A DNA stretch of 64,000 nt, taken from assembly GCA_019636695.1 (NCBI GenBank), contig JAHBXD010000001.1:117661-181660 (forward strand). Direction: 5' to 3'. The DNA is from Phycisphaeraceae bacterium. GTDB lineage: Bacteria > Planctomycetota > Phycisphaerae > Phycisphaerales > UBA1924. The position numbers and the translations under genes are program-made. Shown here in pieces: positions 5,046 through 11,094 of this stretch. How positions within the stretch are numbered: position 1 is the first letter of the stretch; each line of letters opens with the position of its first letter. Below the pieces are notes generated by a model. That model was not told where the DNA came from and did not search any database. It was given only the letters and a program-made list of their open reading frames with translations.

Positions 5046-5876
5046 ATGCGCACCGATCGATTCCCATTCGATCACTACCTGGCGAGCGATGCGCTCGGCC
5101 TCGTCGTATGCGCCATTCCCAAGTGCGCGTGTACCACTCTCAAGCACTGGCTCGTCGCGACGACTGAAGGCGCTCCCGTCCCGCCAGATCACGCCGGGGG
5201 TATCCATCGCTACTGCACCGCGCGTTACGCCCTGGCCTCGCGCCCGCCCGCTGAGGCTCAGGCCGTGCTCGATCGTGCCTTCCGGGTTGCGATCCTCCGC
5301 GATCCCCTCGAACGCATCGCCTCGGCCTATGCCTCCAAGTTCGTCCGCATCGCTCCTCCTGAACGCTCCAGCCGGCCCGTCGTCGAAGCCGTCCAGATCG
5401 GGTCGCCGACCGATGTCTTCCACGACCGCCTCGGCCCCATTCATTTCGGCCTTCGCAGCGAAATCGGCCCGCTCTGTTCTCGCGTCGATTACAACCGCGG
5501 CATCACGTTCCGCGAATTCCTCGACTATCTCGTTCGAACTCCCGACGACGACCTCGACCCGCACTGGCGTCCTCAGGCGGCGTTCGTCCGTCCCGTCACA
5601 TTCCACATCCTCGGCTCGATCGACCACATCGACCGGGTGCTTCAAAAGGCCCTCGAACACCTCGGCATCGAACGCCCCGTCCCGGCCGCCCGCACGCCGC
5701 ACGCGCGCAAGCCGGCCCGGTCGCGAACGCTCGCCGACACACCCGCCGGCGAACTCCGCCTGCGCAGCATCAATCCCACCGCCGACGATCTCTACACACC
5801 CGAACTTCGCCTGCTCGTCCGCGCGCGCTACCAGCACGATGTCGAACTCTTCAATGCCGCCGTCGAGTACACCTGA
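5046..5876 (+). CDS. Sulfotransferase family protein (Sulfotransfer_2-like)
   Basis: Putative PAPS-dependent sulfotransferase of 276 aa. The 5'-phosphosulfate loop is visible near residue 22 (AIPKCACTTLKHW) and the 3'-phosphate-binding segment near residue 83 (AILRDPLERIASAY), the arrangement seen in carbohydrate sulfotransferases. No signal peptide or membrane segment is seen, so it is probably cytoplasmic. The acceptor cannot be inferred; surface polysaccharide or lipid are the usual substrates. It follows tig on the same strand but has a separate 130-bp gap, and it converges with the pseudopilin gene downstream. The start at 5046 was chosen because the preceding codons show no family character. 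Confidence 0.8.
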   Translation: MRTDRFPFDHYLASDALGLVVCAIPKCACTTLKHWLVATTEGAPVPPDHAGGIHRYCTARYALASRPPAEAQAVLDRAFRVAILRDPLERIASAYASKFVRIAPPERSSRPVVEAVQIGSPTDVFHDRLGPIHFGLRSEIGPLCSRVDYNRGITFREFLDYLVRTPDDDLDPHWRPQAAFVRPVTFHILGSIDHIDRVLQKALEHLGIERPVPAARTPHARKPARSRTLADTPAGELRLRSINPTADDLYTPELRLLVRARYQHDVELFNAAVEYT

Positions 5877-5955
5877 TCGTCCTCCCGCGCCCGGCCCAAC
5901 GCCCCGTGGCGCGACTGGCGCCTAAAGACATCCCGCGCAAGGTGCAAAGAGCCTC

Positions 5956-6792
5956 TTACCACCTTCTCCAGTCCGGCACATATCCGGGGCTGTTCGTCAC
6001 CGTCACCGAGCCGATCGCATCCCACCCTTCCATCAGCGCCCCCGCCCGGTGTCCCTGCACGCTCCCATCCGCCGCCGCGATCTGCGCGTGTCGCCGATGT
6101 CGGAACGCCGTCGTCGGAGAGTCATTTACCCGCCACTGCCCCCCCATATACAGCATCGGTGGGTCAAGCAGCGCCGTGTTCATCGGCAGCCCACCGCCGA
6201 AGCCTCCCAGCAACGCATCCGCGAACACGAAAAGACTTGATGGGTGCTCCACATCCGCAATCCGCCGCCACGGCCGATGCCCGATGCTCGAGGCCCACCC
6301 CGGCGTCTTGCCCGGACTCAGGTAATACCCGTTATACCCGTACGTGCTCGTGATCGAACGCGATGGCCCCTGTGGCCGATACGTCTCCCACGGCTGGTTC
6401 GGGCACTCATACACCGAAGAAGCGCTCAGCGTCGATTCCAGATACGGCGCAAGAAATCCCGCCGCGTGGTCGGGCGGGTCGGTCGCCGTGCCGTGCGACC
6501 CCCACCAGAAAATCTGCGGCCCTGAGCCGATGTCCTTCAACTCCCAGTACGCCAGCGGCATCGCCCGATCGCCGTGCTCCCCGGCATACATCATCCATCC
6601 CATCGCCATCTGGCGCAGGTTCGAAGCACACCGCACCCCCCGGGCCGACTCGCGCGCCCCCCCCAGCGCCGGCAGCACCATCGCCAGCAGCAGAGACGAA
6701 ATCGCGATCACGACCAGCAGTTCGATCAGCGACATCCCGCGCGCTTGACCGCGCTGTATGCCCCTCGATATCGTGCTGCGCACCTTCTTCAT
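5956..6792 (-). CDS. Type II secretion/type IV pilin-like protein (pseudopilin, H-X9-DG type)
   Basis: Secreted or inner-membrane pseudopilin of 278 aa. A short basic leader ends in Gly19, followed by the class III signal MSLIELLVVIAIS with Glu at position +5, which is the prepilin peptidase cleavage/methylation site. A hydrophobic helix follows, then a globular domain with SARGVRCASNLRQMAMG. Near the C-terminus is the HAQIAAADGSV stretch of the planctomycete 'H-X9-DG' family. The ATG at 6792 has GGTGAG upstream and lies only 4 bp after the stop of the PQQ/dockerin gene, so it is the third gene of the cobalamin-riboswitch operon. Proteins of this type are very numerous in planctomycetes with unknown roles; here the context suggests a part in a B12-responsive surface system. 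Confidence 0.85.
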   Translation of the reverse strand: MKKVRSTISRGIQRGQARGMSLIELLVVIAISSLLLAMVLPALGGARESARGVRCASNLRQMAMGWMMYAGEHGDRAMPLAYWELKDIGSGPQIFWWGSHGTATDPPDHAAGFLAPYLESTLSASSVYECPNQPWETYRPQGPSRSITSTYGYNGYYLSPGKTPGWASSIGHRPWRRIADVEHPSSLFVFADALLGGFGGGLPMNTALLDPPMLYMGGQWRVNDSPTTAFRHRRHAQIAAADGSVQGHRAGALMEGWDAIGSVTVTNSPGYVPDWRRW

Positions 6793-6796
6793 GTGC

Positions 6797-8365
6797 TCAC
6801 CGGCGCCGCAACTCAAAACGCTCGTTGCGCCGAAGTTCAAACTCCAGCAGTTCAACATCGCCCGCGTTCACCGCCCCCGACCGGTCCACATCCAGCGAGC
6901 CTTCGCCCCGATGCCACGAGATCAGGTCTTCCACATCGCGTCGGCCGTCCCCGTTCACATCCGGTTCACCCGGCCCCGGCCCGCGCGCGGTAAGCCCCTC
7001 AGGGCCGATGGTGTACACCCCGCGCCCCAGCACCGCGCAAGGCCCGCCTCCGCCCTCGAAGATCGTCGCAAAGCCCGCGGCATCCGGCGTTACCCCGAGG
7101 TCAAGCACCACCAGGTGCGTATACGCCGCCCCCGTCGTCGATCCCTGGCCCATCCGCCCGCTGAGCAGTCGTGCGTGCCCCCCGCTCCCCGTCACCAGCG
7201 GATGATGCGTCCACCCGCCCGCAACCATGAACTCTCCCGCATCCAGGCGCCCGTTCAGGTTCGCATCGACCCACGAATCCAGCGCGGAATCCCACACCAA
7301 CGACGCCGACAACCCATGATCGACATAACACTGCACCGAAGGCACGGTCCCGAATCCCCATAACCCCCCGCTCAGCACCACCCGGCCGTCATCCAGCACC
7401 ACAGGCGTCGAACTGGTCCGATTGCTCGGAACGCTCCACATTAATGCGCCGTCGTCCACGCGCACTTTCACCAGGTTCGCCGAAAGCACCCCCCCGGAAA
7501 ACGCGTACGACCCCGCATAGGCCGCCAGTCCCTCGGGCCGGTATGCCAGCGTCACACCGCCGTAAAAACCGTGCCACTCCGGGTTCGCTCTCCGCCAGCG
7601 TTCGACCGGCGGCTCCTCCGCCGCCGCATCGAACGCCAGCAGTTCACCGATCCCAACACCGTCCAGCCCTGTCGTCGCCACCACCACCACCCCGCCCGCC
7701 GCCGCGGGGGATGATCCCGACGCCGATCCGATCTCAACGCTCCACACCGCTTCACCCGGATCAAACGGGTTTCGTGAACCCTCTCGGGGCGAGAGATTGA
7801 TGCACCACAACCGCGAAACCGACCCGAACCCCCCGTAATCCGTCACAAACGCCCGCCGCTTGCCGCGATCTCCCGTGATCGCGGGCGAAGCATTCACCAC
7901 CGGCGCGGGCAGCACGAGTTCCCACGCCTCTTCGCCATCGTCGAGGCGATACCCGAGCATCCGCGTACCCGCCCCAACGACAAGCACGCCGCTCTCCAGG
8001 TCGATCGCCGGCGAAGCCCACGAATCCAGCACGATCGATGGTGCCGGGCGCACCCACACCACGCTCCCGTCCGACGCATCCACACAGAGCACGCGCGCGG
8101 CCCCTCCGACCCGCGCGAGCACATAAATGCGCCCTTCAGCCCCCACCGGCGCGCTCGGGCCAATGAAACTGATCGCTTCCCCGCCGGGAAGGTGACTAAG
8201 CGTCCACCGCACGGGTTCCAGTGTCAGCGCATACGGCCGCGCCCCCGACCGCGCGGCCGACCCCTGCACGCACGGCCACTCGGTAATGCCCGGAACCGGC
8301 TGCGCCGACGCTCGGCCTCCCCAGGCGAGCGCCGACGCAACCAAGACAACGCAATGCGTCCTCAT
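6797..8365 (-). CDS. Secreted PQQ-like beta-propeller protein with C-terminal dockerin-like EF-hand repeats
   Basis: 522-aa protein with a Sec signal peptide (about 1-21, ending ASAQ). The body (about 50-420) consists of repeated strands of the PQQ-like/quinoprotein propeller type, such as RVLCVDASDGSVVW and MLGYRLDDGEEAWEL, with internal EF-hand-like loops such as DANLNGRLDAGEF. The C-terminus carries a dockerin-like pair of calcium loops, DVNGDGRRDVED (about 469) and DVDRSGAVNAGD (about 492). No quinone-enzyme catalytic signature was recognised, so a binding or scaffold role is more likely than dehydrogenase activity. Its ATG overlaps the stop of the upstream PEP-CTERM gene (ATGA). It is the second gene of the cobalamin-riboswitch operon. 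The Bacteroides surface B12-binding protein BtuG is also a beta-propeller, a suggestive parallel but not evidence of homology. Confidence 0.8.
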   Translation of the reverse strand: MRTHCVVLVASALAWGGRASAQPVPGITEWPCVQGSAARSGARPYALTLEPVRWTLSHLPGGEAISFIGPSAPVGAEGRIYVLARVGGAARVLCVDASDGSVVWVRPAPSIVLDSWASPAIDLESGVLVVGAGTRMLGYRLDDGEEAWELVLPAPVVNASPAITGDRGKRRAFVTDYGGFGSVSRLWCINLSPREGSRNPFDPGEAVWSVEIGSASGSSPAAAGGVVVVATTGLDGVGIGELLAFDAAAEEPPVERWRRANPEWHGFYGGVTLAYRPEGLAAYAGSYAFSGGVLSANLVKVRVDDGALMWSVPSNRTSSTPVVLDDGRVVLSGGLWGFGTVPSVQCYVDHGLSASLVWDSALDSWVDANLNGRLDAGEFMVAGGWTHHPLVTGSGGHARLLSGRMGQGSTTGAAYTHLVVLDLGVTPDAAGFATIFEGGGGPCAVLGRGVYTIGPEGLTARGPGPGEPDVNGDGRRDVEDLISWHRGEGSLDVDRSGAVNAGDVELLEFELRRNERFELRRR

Positions 8366-9174
8366 CGCGAGCCTCTCCGGCGCCGCGATATCACCATCAC
8401 GCCCGCTCCGAGCACCAGCGCCGCCGCCGGCCCCGGCACCGGACGCACAATCGCAAACCCGTCGATCTCCACCGTAAAGGGGTTGTCCATCGGGTTGCTG
8501 ATCCGCACATACAGGATGAAATCAAACCCGACCAGGCCGATATCCACCCCCGTGCCTCCGCCCGATCCGTCATACCCCGCCACGATTTCCGCGAATGTCA
8601 ACCCTGTCGCGACAAACGAAGGATCTACCGGCTTCGTGAAATCCGTCTCGATCATCCCCCGCACCGGCGAAAATGGGTCCGTCAGATCGCGATACCCCAG
8701 CGTCGGGTGCAGCCCGTCCGCCGCCGCGTTCGGAATCGTCCTCCACTCGTCCCCGTCCTGCGATACTTCGATGATCCCTCCGTCAGCCGACAGCATCCCC
8801 GCCCGTCCGTGAGGAAAATCGTCATCAAAATAAAACGAGTTGCCGAACACCAACAGGTCGATGCCGAAAGGATTGAGCGGGTCATTCACGATCGGACGAT
8901 CGAACGCCACGATCAGGCTTCCACCGCGGCCGATCGACACAATTTCCGTCTCCATCCACGCGCTGTTGAACGGCGTGACCGCCCCCGGAAAAATCCCCTC
9001 ACCCGTAAATCGCGTCGGCTCTCCCAGCGCTGCCGTCGGGTCGTCATACCCCGGCGTCACCCCGATCCCCGCGTCATAGAACCGAACTTCGCTCGCCCAA
9101 GGGTGATCGCCGCTCGCCCCGCAACTCCCCACCGCAATCCCTACCGCAACGCAAAACGAAAAAACCCGTTCCAT
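8362..9174 (-). CDS. Secreted PEP-CTERM-like protein, first gene of cobalamin-riboswitch operon
   Basis: 270-aa exported protein. It has an N-terminal signal peptide (VFSFCVAVGIAVGS), then a conserved beta-rich region with VTPGYDDPTAALGEPTRF, GGSLIVAFDRP and FGIDLLVFGNSF. The last 25 residues form a PEP-CTERM-like sorting signal: VPGPAAA, a hydrophobic helix, then RRRR. The start at 9174 is supported by GGAG six bases upstream. The stop overlaps the ATG of the propeller gene. A cobalamin riboswitch lies about 220 bp upstream on the same strand, so expression should fall when B12 is plentiful. The domain resembles 'cell surface proteins' that I associate with B12-regulated loci, but a specific function is not established from sequence; cobalamin capture is inference. 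Confidence 0.8.
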   Translation of the reverse strand: MERVFSFCVAVGIAVGSCGASGDHPWASEVRFYDAGIGVTPGYDDPTAALGEPTRFTGEGIFPGAVTPFNSAWMETEIVSIGRGGSLIVAFDRPIVNDPLNPFGIDLLVFGNSFYFDDDFPHGRAGMLSADGGIIEVSQDGDEWRTIPNAAADGLHPTLGYRDLTDPFSPVRGMIETDFTKPVDPSFVATGLTFAEIVAGYDGSGGGTGVDIGLVGFDFILYVRISNPMDNPFTVEIDGFAIVRPVPGPAAALVLGAGVMVISRRRRGSR

Positions 9175-9360
9175 CACCACTCCGTGCCGCAGCCGCGGCA
9201 TGCACCCCGAACGCGCGGGATGGCCCCCCGACCTCGACGGTCTGGTCGCCTCGCGAACTCTCGGGTGCTTCCGGCCGGCGCGCCACGGGGAGCCTGCGGC
9301 ACGCTTCGCCGGCGCCCCTGCCCATTCGGGCCTCGCGAGGGCAACCATGCGCCGGTTCTT

Positions 9361-9380
9361 CCTTGGCCTGCTGGCCAAGG
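9361..9380 (-). promoter_or_regulatory. Hairpin between riboswitch and operon, possible expression platform
   Basis: A perfect 8-bp inverted repeat (CCTTGGCC/GGCCAAGG) with a 4-base loop lies 12 bp downstream of the riboswitch core in the direction of transcription. No U-run follows, so it is not an intrinsic terminator by itself. It could take part in an alternative pairing or Rho-linked control. Confidence 0.35.
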
Positions 9381-9392
9381 CCCGGCGTCGTC

Positions 9393-9581
9393 GGCAGGTC
9401 TTCCGGCTCGGGGCCTGCACTCTCAACCTTCCCACGGCCCGGGTCTGACCCCGGTCAACCGCAGTGGTCTTTCAGGTTCGCTTGGCGAACCCGAGAGCGC
9501 AGCACATGCCCCTTACGGCGGCGCGTCCGCGGTGGCTTTTCACCACACTTCCCTCTTGTGCCCGTCACTTACACAGGCACC
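9393..9581 (-). promoter_or_regulatory. Cobalamin (B12) riboswitch
   Basis: Read on the minus strand, the conserved cobalamin aptamer elements occur in the expected order: GGTGCC at 9581-9576, GGGAAGTG at 9553-9546, GGTGAAAAGCC at 9544-9534, a G/C-rich core, the B12-box-like GACCACTG at 9469-9462, GGGAAGG near 9434, and the terminal GCCGGAAGACCTGCC ending at 9393. Order, spacing (about 190 nt) and orientation match the class. It faces the surface-protein operon beginning at 9174. In this family ligand binding normally lowers expression of the downstream genes. Confidence 0.93.
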
Positions 9582-9593
9582 GACGATGCAGCC

Positions 9594-9622
9594 AGCATAA
9601 CCAACCGCAAGGCACCCCGCAA
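9594..9622 (-). promoter_or_regulatory. Probable sigma-70-type promoter for the cobalamin-riboswitch operon
   Basis: On the minus strand, TTGCGG (9622-9617) and TATGCT (9599-9594) are separated by exactly 17 bases and sit 13 bases before the first riboswitch element. Position and spacing fit a -35/-10 pair. Assignment is by eye. Confidence 0.5.
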
Positions 9623-9715
9623 CCGCGCATCATGCCGCACATTCACCTATGGATTCCCCTGGCGATGGTGCCGAACGTGGCAATTAAGGTGTTAAGGAAC
9701 TCCCTGAAAGAGGGG

Positions 9716-9731
9716 TGTTCCACGTGGAACG
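9716..9731. other. parS-like centromere site (ParB binding)
   Basis: TGTTCCACGTGGAACG matches the bacterial parS consensus (tGTTNCACGTGNAACa) at 15 of 16 positions, including the complete 14-bp palindrome GTTCCACGTGGAAC at 9717-9730. It is in the intergenic space between the riboswitch promoter and the end of corC. Chromosomal parS sites cluster near the replication origin. No parA/parB or dnaA was seen in this window. Confidence 0.8.
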
Positions 9732-9744
9732 GTTTTTGATAGGG

Positions 9745-11094
9745 TCACACCGGGCCATCTTCCGCGACCACCGCCCGCGTGCCCTCGCCTTCCCGATCCT
9801 GCATCCGGTGCACCTCGACACGTTTCACGCGGGTCTGCTCGGCCTCAAGCACCTTCAGAATCGCGCCGTCGATCTCCACCGTTGCGCCCGGCTCCGGGAT
9901 GAACCCCAGTTTCACGATCACCAGCCCCGCGAGTGTGTCGTAATCCTCGCTCTCCGGCAGGGTAATGCCGATCGCGTCGAGCAGGTCGTTGGCTTCGTCG
10001 ATGCGCGTGCGGGCGTCGAGTTCGGCGCGCATCTGATCCCGGTCGATGTCCACGCTCGGTCGTTCGGACGGCGCTTCGTACTCATCCTGAATTTCGCCGA
10101 AGACCTCTTCAATGATGTCTTCCATCGTCACGATGCCCGCCGTCCCGCCGTACTCATCAGCCGCGACGGCGATGTGCACACGGTGCCCCAGCAACTCCTT
10201 GAGGAGTTCCTGGACGGTTTTCGTCTCGGGCACGAACGTCGCGGGGCGCAGAATCGACGCGAGGCTGAAGGCCGCCGGGTCGACGCCCTCGGGGTTGCTC
10301 ATCCAGCGCAGCAGGTCTTTGGCATACAAAAAACCGACGACGTGGTCGAGATCGTCGCGGTAGACCGGAATGCGGCTGTGCCCGACATCGCGCACAAAAC
10401 TCTGTACGGCCGCGAGATCGTCGGTGTATTCGAGGGCGTCGACCTCGGTGCGCGGGGTCATGATTTCTTCGACGGTGCGCCAGCCGAACTGCATGACCGA
10501 TTCGATCATGTGCCTGGCCTGCTCGTCGATCTGGCCTTCGCGTTCACCTTCCTCCACGACGCTGAGCACTTCATCCTGGAGCATTTCGGCCGAGTCGCGT
10601 TCGGCGTCGCCCACGAGCCGGCGCACCACTTCGTCAAAGAAAGCCCCGACGCGCCGCAGCGGCGCCATCACGATGAACAGCAGGCGTATCAGCCCGCAGA
10701 AGCGCACGATCGTGCGCTCCGCGGCGTGTTCGGCGACGCTCACGGGCAGCGCGACGGCGAAGACCCAGGCAAGGATGCTCGACACGAGCACCCCGAGAAT
10801 CACGTCGGTCGAACTCGGGTCGCCGGCGTGGCGCACCTGCGCGATCCAGGCGACCACGCTGATCATGAAGAGAAAAGTGAAGAAGACGCGCGGAAATGCT
10901 GCCGCAAGGGCGTGACCGTCGGCATCGCGCACCAGGGCGTCGATTTTGCGGATCATCGCGGGGTTGGCACGCTCTTCGGCGAGTTCTTCGACGCGCGAGA
11001 GCGAAGCCTGCCTGATCGCCATGTGGAGCGTGGCGAAGAGGCCGGCAAGCACGAGCGCTGCCGCTGCGACGGCGAACCAGACGAGTGCACTCAC
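9745..11094 (-). CDS. HlyC/CorC-family membrane protein (DUF21-like, CBS pair, CorC-HlyC domain)
   Basis: 449-aa protein of the HlyC/CorC (CNNM-like) family, linked to divalent cation, notably Mg2+, homeostasis. The N-terminal third has several hydrophobic segments (about 1-25, 65-85, 95-120, 130-145). A CBS pair follows (about 200-325), marked by IMTPRTEVDALEY and DEYGGTAGIVTMEDIIEEVF. The C-terminal transporter-associated domain (about 350-435) ends the protein, with LPESEDYDTLAGLVI. The start overlaps the stop of ybeY (ATGA), a classic gene pair. A parS-like site lies 14 bp beyond the stop. Confidence 0.9.
   Translation of the reverse strand: MSALVWFAVAAAALVLAGLFATLHMAIRQASLSRVEELAEERANPAMIRKIDALVRDADGHALAAAFPRVFFTFLFMISVVAWIAQVRHAGDPSSTDVILGVLVSSILAWVFAVALPVSVAEHAAERTIVRFCGLIRLLFIVMAPLRRVGAFFDEVVRRLVGDAERDSAEMLQDEVLSVVEEGEREGQIDEQARHMIESVMQFGWRTVEEIMTPRTEVDALEYTDDLAAVQSFVRDVGHSRIPVYRDDLDHVVGFLYAKDLLRWMSNPEGVDPAAFSLASILRPATFVPETKTVQELLKELLGHRVHIAVAADEYGGTAGIVTMEDIIEEVFGEIQDEYEAPSERPSVDIDRDQMRAELDARTRIDEANDLLDAIGITLPESEDYDTLAGLVIVKLGFIPEPGATVEIDGAILKVLEAEQTRVKRVEVHRMQDREGEGTRAVVAEDGPV

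Follow-up and report, generated by a model that had tools for sequence, protein, structure and literature searches.

The window, a 64,000-nucleotide stretch of the genome of a Phycisphaeraceae bacterium, carries on its minus strand a cobalamin riboswitch followed by three closely packed genes, the last of which encodes a type IV pilin-like protein of the H-X9-DG class. Pseudopilins are known components of the T2SS, and the locus raises the question of what such a protein does behind a B12-responsive element, and whether it is there by chance or as a regular member of a B12 operon.

Layout of the operon and its third gene

The cobalamin riboswitch aptamer (RF00174; 9376..9599, minus strand) was detected by cmscan with a score of 85.6 bits, against a gathering threshold of 31.5, and was the sole RF00174 found in the organism's 3.11-Mb genome. 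Gene 1 (8362..9174, minus strand), whose start codon at 9174 was our choice, encodes a predicted secreted protein of 270 residues with a BtuH-like B12-binding domain and a PEP-CTERM-like C-terminal helix, an assignment based on an AF2 model and its structural matches. Gene 2 (6797..8365, minus strand), which overlaps gene 1 by 4 nt, encodes a 522-residue PQQ/BamB-type β-propeller (PF13360, 2e-13) with a C-terminal dockerin-like repeat (Dockerin_1, sub-threshold), and its profile matched BamB structures. Gene 3 (5956..6792, minus strand) encodes the pilin-like protein of 278 residues, and its ATG lies 4 nt past the gene 2 stop codon. The preliminary description had named a pseudopilin as the third gene, 4 bp behind the propeller gene; the open reading frame, the spacing and the riboswitch score all agree with that layout. 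Beyond gene 3 a sulfotransferase gene (PF03567; 4926-5876) runs in the opposite orientation on the plus strand, so that the unit stops at gene 3. A scan of positions 5700-9900 gave 6 matches to a terminator-like consensus, compared with 3.2 ± 1.9 in shuffled sequences; two overlapping matches (8369-8350 and 8360-8348) fell at the gene 1/2 junction and none was found at the gene 2/3 junction. The three genes are predicted, from their arrangement in the sequence, to form an operon behind the riboswitch.

The N-terminus of the gene 3 product (...RG|MSLIELLVVIAIS) is a prepilin site, with cleavage predicted between G19 and M20, which would make E24 the fifth residue (E5) of the mature protein; E24 was invariant in an alignment of 37 operon pilins. 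The protein matched PF07963 with 27.7 bits (curated cut-off, 21.2; E = 1.8e-6) and TIGR02532 with an E-value of 1.6e-5, and the Pfam family DUF1559/SBP_bac_10 (PF07596) reached 20.3 bits against a cut-off of 23.3, over the N-terminal stretch only. Its earlier assignment to the H-X9-DG class was borne out, as the motif H232-x9-D242G243 can be read from the sequence and its three residues were kept in at least 90% of alignment A1. The prepilin N-terminus and the H-X9-DG motif are shared with the H-X9-DG/DUF1559 (SBP_bac_10) pilins of planctomycetes, as set out in the available parts of PMC8567305 and PMC10632474, which give 91 proteins with both domains in T. immobilis and 68 paralogs in P. limnophila, respectively. 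Unlike these other pilins, which have no assigned ligand in the same parts of the two papers, the subfamily of the operon has a fixed riboswitch context.

Conservation of the pilin behind the riboswitch

RF00174 was found in 139 of 150 Phycisphaerae genomes. The final census comprised 142 riboswitch sites with known coordinates in 128 genomes, and 123 of the sites had at least 3.5 kb of downstream sequence. Pilins were sought by HMM on stop-to-stop frames, a crude gene caller having missed some of them, and were called when the HMM score exceeded 140 bits on the same strand within 6 kb of the riboswitch. A pilin of the operon subfamily was present at 105 of the 123 sites, and lay behind a riboswitch in 105 of the 110 evaluable genomes; it was still visible at 9 of the 19 sites with shorter downstream sequence. 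The HMM was seeded by 59 loci of the same set, and at sites outside the seeds the pilin was found in 52 of 69. The organism itself has 45 N_methyl proteins (44 besides gene 3), from which the chance of meeting any pilin on the same strand within 6 kb is about 4.2% per site. In the first 80 loci, a strong pilin match (175-312 bits) lay on the riboswitch strand in 76, as it did in the window; of the other four, one reached a contig end (L071), one had BtuB instead (L079), and in the genomes of two (L082 and L094) the pilin stood behind another riboswitch. One genome scored as lacking the pilin (G099) and another (G110) each had a DUF4465-binder-pilin cluster on another contig. The class-wide presence of the pilin refuted both a chance neighbour and a single-genome oddity. 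Neighbourhood conservation across Phycisphaerae, which had been proposed as a check, thus showed that the gene is not peculiar to its own genome, and the view that a regulated context offers a rare clue to this class of pilins holds across the class.

Eighteen full-length sites were without a pilin. Four of these had a BtuB-like receptor (L079, L308, L310 and the second riboswitch of L077), while nine others, at which ten proteins were scanned, held anaerobic or ATP-cone ribonucleotide reductases, DBI_PRT, a histidine phosphatase and radical-SAM/SPASM proteins; at these sites DBI_PRT and the histidine phosphatase represent cobamide-salvage enzymes. B12 regulons typically include ribonucleotide reductases and salvage genes, so the riboswitches of the pilin-free sites look like ordinary B12 sensors.

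Second riboswitches were seen ahead of anaerobic or ATP-cone ribonucleotide reductases (L317, L423 and L400) and of cobamide-salvage genes (L321, L391 and L411). At one position (L082/L424, G001:C44:40508-40993) two divergent riboswitches stand back to back, one leading to a BtuH-like gene and a propeller and the other to the pilin. A conserved fourth gene was considered and rejected: the genes behind the pilin, of which 31 of 38 were scanned, varied from locus to locus (MutS-type, CinA, BFD-like, phosphoribosyltransferase and others), and the operon therefore ends in most cases with the pilin.

The association was also found when the search began from the pilin. A contig scan with 12 close operon pilins (A2) matched 88 loci, the best 80 of which were nearly all from Planctomycetota; among these 80, the 62 with more than 3.6 kb of upstream sequence were evaluable, and all 62 had a cobalamin riboswitch upstream. 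A B12 box was present in 48 of the 62, and RF00174 was detected in all of the remaining 14 as well as in all 24 of the B12-box loci that were retested. Rfam thus confirmed 38 of the 62 (38/38 tested), and the other 24 depend on the B12-box rule, which had a sensitivity of 94/114 and gave 9 matches in 2.3 Mb of background.

The phylogeny of the pilins had been suggested as a further check. In a tree of 65 rows (33 operon pilins of the class, 7 from other classes, 21 paralogs from the organism's own genome and 4 others, with the shorter own-genome pilins excluded), the label "operon" required 5 changes versus 22.0 in shuffles, and none of 500 shuffles was as low. When 39 operon pilins were constrained to group together (L201 excluded), the log-likelihood was 14.35 above that of the free tree, with a p-AU of 0.731. 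The operon pilins cluster apart from the paralogs, so that the second refuting condition of the preliminary description, a fall into clades with unrelated neighbours, failed as well. The data fit a single clade without proving it, because the deep branches are weak and the paralogs come from one genome only.

In a family of another planctomycete class (f47), five of six fetched loci (L175, L178, L191, L200 and L207) had the pilin next to the riboswitch, ahead of any other gene, and profile searches found no gene-1-like binder in these five; the sixth, L197, had no such pilin. It is very improbable that the pilin is a passenger of an ancient linkage, with no function related to B12. Vertical inheritance does contribute to all of the counts above, but the pilin stays when its partner genes change from one part of the class to another, it takes the first place after the riboswitch in a different class, and its position has been kept while the sequences diverged to identities as low as 23%. 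These data largely refute the passenger reading.

Partners of the pilin and their predicted binding of B12

The preliminary description had tied the pilin to a B12-regulated propeller. The tie to the riboswitch stood, while the propeller failed as a conserved partner: it was present at 15 of 114 pilin sites, almost all of them with pilins of a single subgroup, and was therefore ruled out as a core component. The constant partner of the operon pilin is instead a group of putative surface proteins of the BtuH/BtuJ type that are predicted to bind B12.

Gene 1 matched no Pfam family. Its AF2 model (pLDDT 92.0) was most similar, in a second structural comparison (VIA), to 7biz_B (BtuH2; Z 13.4, rmsd 2.8 Å over 144 residues, 31% identity) and to 8blw_B (BtuG1 with a fused BtuH domain; Z 13.4), compared with a Z of 9.6 for the third-best row; Foldseek alone did not place BtuH among its top 50 matches for this model. 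The top PDB match of a gene 1 sequence profile was also 8blw (E = 0.013, residues 416-499), a match that the single sequence did not give. The accessible portion of PMC10404256 describes a C-terminal BtuH extension of BtuG1, and residues 416-499 of 8blw fall, by position, within it. The best match for gene 1 is thus a BtuH-like protein with a predicted B12-binding domain, as far as modelling can indicate. At its C-terminus there was a sub-threshold PEP-CTERM match. Gene 1 also carries a weak lipobox-like VGSC, and its family overlaps NCBIfam NF033170 (Leptospira LIC_13355 family lipoprotein), which matched 12 of 60 operon proteins and did not match the gene 1 protein of the window; the Leptospira family may merit attention for B12 binding.

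Profiles detected a BtuH-like or DUF4465 protein at 83 of the 105 pilin sites and neither at the other 22. DUF4465 was present at 18 of the 105 according to a mini-HMM, four of whose ten seeds were antisense, the figure counting sense frames only. Per-genome counts, taken from Pfam, placed DUF4465 in 21 of the 150 class genomes, close behind a riboswitch in 19 of the 21. A sample of the order had it in 9 of 251; eight of these loci were inspected, all eight with RF00174 upstream, and the pilin followed DUF4465 directly in seven, the sequence of the eighth (L340) ending at that point. The DUF4465 proteins of Mucisphaera calidilacus Pan265 (L336) and Poriferisphaera corsica KS4 (L337) scored 111.8 and 187.3 bits, respectively, with PF14717 (cut-off 25). 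In M. calidilacus, which has a single DUF4465 match in its genome, the order was riboswitch, BtuH-like gene, DUF4465 gene and, after 7 nt, pilin. According to the available part of PMC13398666, the DUF4465 protein A0A518BTS0 of M. calidilacus retains B12 through purification, and we infer that it is the product of the gene 7 nt ahead of the pilin. A tested member of the B12-binding family DUF4465 (IPR027828) would thus belong to an operon of the window's kind, although the words pilin and operon are absent from the text of that paper, in the part available, and Pfam PF14717 found no DUF4465 in the window's own genome.

Proteins with PEP-CTERM or dockerin features and no named family stood in or beside the place of the binder at five loci (L138, L139, L118, L126 and L128) and may be further families of B12 binders; the pilins of these loci form a distinct subgroup with a GFVG..NxPHY tail.

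Pilin, riboswitch and binder are thus linked in Phycisphaerae. Adhesion is a common role of pilins and PEP-CTERM proteins often belong to the matrix, which would suit a response to B12 scarcity that has nothing to do with transporting the vitamin, such as attachment to a partner that makes B12, the pilin acting as adhesin. We regard such a response as quite improbable, since the partners of the pilin are homologues of proteins proven to bind B12 in the accessible text of PMC13398666.

BtuB and a possible route of B12 uptake

The operon resembles the BtuB-BtuG-BtuH-BtuJ loci of Bacteroides (PMC6143338, PMC8941943, PMC10404256 and PMC12751083) in its cobalamin riboswitch, its BtuH-type and DUF4465/BtuJ-type binders and, in some loci, a propeller. 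Three differences were apparent: 1) the Phycisphaerae operon has a pilin instead of BtuB, 2) its anchors look like PEP-CTERM or dockerin elements, whereas the proteins of the Bacteroides loci are mainly lipoproteins and 3) the propeller of the window is of the PQQ/BamB type, with BtuG at most a putative relative. B12-binding surface proteins behind a riboswitch were already known in Bacteroidota; no description of a pilin as the most constant companion of riboswitch-linked B12 binders was found in the open-licence PMC literature, a scope in which subscription papers could be missed.

A strong, near full-length match to a BtuB-like receptor was obtained in only five of the 150 class genomes (G008, G021, G143, G066 and G075), any BtuB-like match in 52, and a TBDT plug in 58, the other 92 being without one at E 0.001. 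The window's own genome had no match to TIGR01779 or to PF07715, that is, no TonB-dependent receptor was found in the operon or the genome. At 40 loci from other planctomycete classes, the riboswitch was followed by a BtuB-like gene in 15, by a pilin in 7 (one weakly) and by both in none. When the sites were pooled, the pilin occurred in the same unit at 0 of 19 BtuB sites (Fisher p = 1.6e-11, a value that is too small because the tested sites are phylogenetically related); the G143 locus was scored as two units, with a second riboswitch in between, and tblastn matches to BtuB in L088, L311 and L313 were dropped as antisense or derived from an antisense query. Both pilin and BtuB are present in G008 and G143, in separate riboswitch units, so a strict one-for-one replacement of BtuB by the pilin was ruled out. 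A conserved pilin in the usual place of the B12 import pore points to an unrecognised route of B12 uptake.

The competence pseudopilus offers a parallel. The two would work alike if the operon pilin and a secretin carry a ligand inwards, although the ligand, the regulation and the pilin family differ. Our evenly balanced judgement is that the unit is a cobamide-acquisition operon whose dedicated pilin takes on a task that falls to BtuB elsewhere, probably the passage of B12, or of the protein that binds it, through a secretin. The operon would be repressed by B12, as the class of riboswitch suggests, and switched on when B12 is scarce. The BtuH/BtuJ-type binders would then be exported, held outside the cell by their PEP-CTERM-like or dockerin-like tails, and catch B12, while the pilin would be processed and enter the general T4P/T2SS machine as a dedicated minor pilin or pseudopilin. 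Its head would meet the loaded binder or B12 itself, and inward passage through the secretin would bring B12 into the periplasm, which is the weakest step; B12 is small, so that pilus-driven uptake is not obviously needed. A FecCD/BtuCD-type ABC importer would complete the import from the periplasm.

The machinery for such a route is widespread in the class. PilT-family ATPases and secretins were found in all 150 genomes and FecCD permeases in 149, in at least 14 of which a FecCD gene lay within 8 kb of the riboswitch, versus about 1.2 expected. These components are a prerequisite and not proof, since the PilT-family matches (about 12 per genome) include the related PilB/GspE ATPases and FecCD serves iron uptake as well. 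In many class genomes the secretin domain PF00263 was located in giant open frames of approximately 4000-6000 residues, such as those of 4648 residues in the window's own genome (G000:C1:713066-713560, plus strand, outside the window) and 6169 residues in G044; the giant secretins are candidates worth considering as the channel.

The principal competing explanation, which is possible and appreciably less likely than the acquisition operon, is that the T2SS exports the PEP-CTERM/dockerin B12 binders, or mounts them on the surface, with the help of the pilin as a pseudopilin specific to these substrates, while B12 crosses the outer membrane by another route. Either proposal of the preliminary description, an assembly at the surface or across the periplasm or a dedicated secretion step, may thus still hold. 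The pilin closely follows secreted binders in most loci, T2SS/T4P machinery is universal in the class, and pseudopilins are established parts of the T2SS. However, a generic pattern of a secreted protein followed by a pilin was not seen in the genome: by a crude rule (a PEP-CTERM or dockerin gene no more than 150 nt ahead), none of 29 other pilins examined, of the 44 others, followed such a gene, which argues that export of PEP-CTERM/dockerin proteins does not generally need a neighbouring pilin. Moreover, in f47 the pilin comes first behind the riboswitch in five of six loci, and dedicated secretion leaves the missing outer-membrane step unexplained.

A filament may not be involved at all. 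In the AF2 model of the pilin (pLDDT 87.9), an N-terminal helix (residues 22-72) is followed by a large β-rich head of about 200 residues that was modelled with confidence, and FecCD genes are close to the operon in some genomes, which would suit an inner-membrane scaffold whose periplasmic head is a binding site for B12 or a docking site for the ABC importer, with no assembly or movement. Such a scaffold appears unlikely, as a Foldseek search with the model returned pilin helices and noise only, with no PDB match suggesting B12 binding, and the conserved head residues of the operon pilins (C55, C130, YGYN and H-X9-DG) are presumably general features of the H-X9-DG class.

If the acquisition reading is carried further, Phycisphaerae may take up B12 by a pilin system devoted to this ligand, in place of a displaced TonB-dependent BtuB, and the H-X9-DG pilins of the huge planctomycete expansion may each serve as the moving part of an uptake device for one substrate, this operon being the first case in which the ligand is known; this broader proposal is tentative and is put forward with less confidence than the acquisition operon itself. 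One subfamily of the H-X9-DG/DUF1559 pilins, of which there are dozens per planctomycete genome, is now tied to a single vitamin, and since the riboswitch can be worked by adding B12, the role of the pilin is directly testable in cultured strains. A pilin as a part of the transport system would be categorically new and, if true, would explain how a large vitamin passes the outer membrane in bacteria without BtuB. The available part of PMC5394234 describes dextran-binding pili-like fibres and crateriform structures in planctomycetes, with a proposed role in macromolecule uptake; the fibre protein is not named in that part, and the likeness to the operon pilin is one of function, through the shared proposal of uptake. 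The finding may bear on this unexplained, fibre-linked uptake of macromolecules by planctomycetes.
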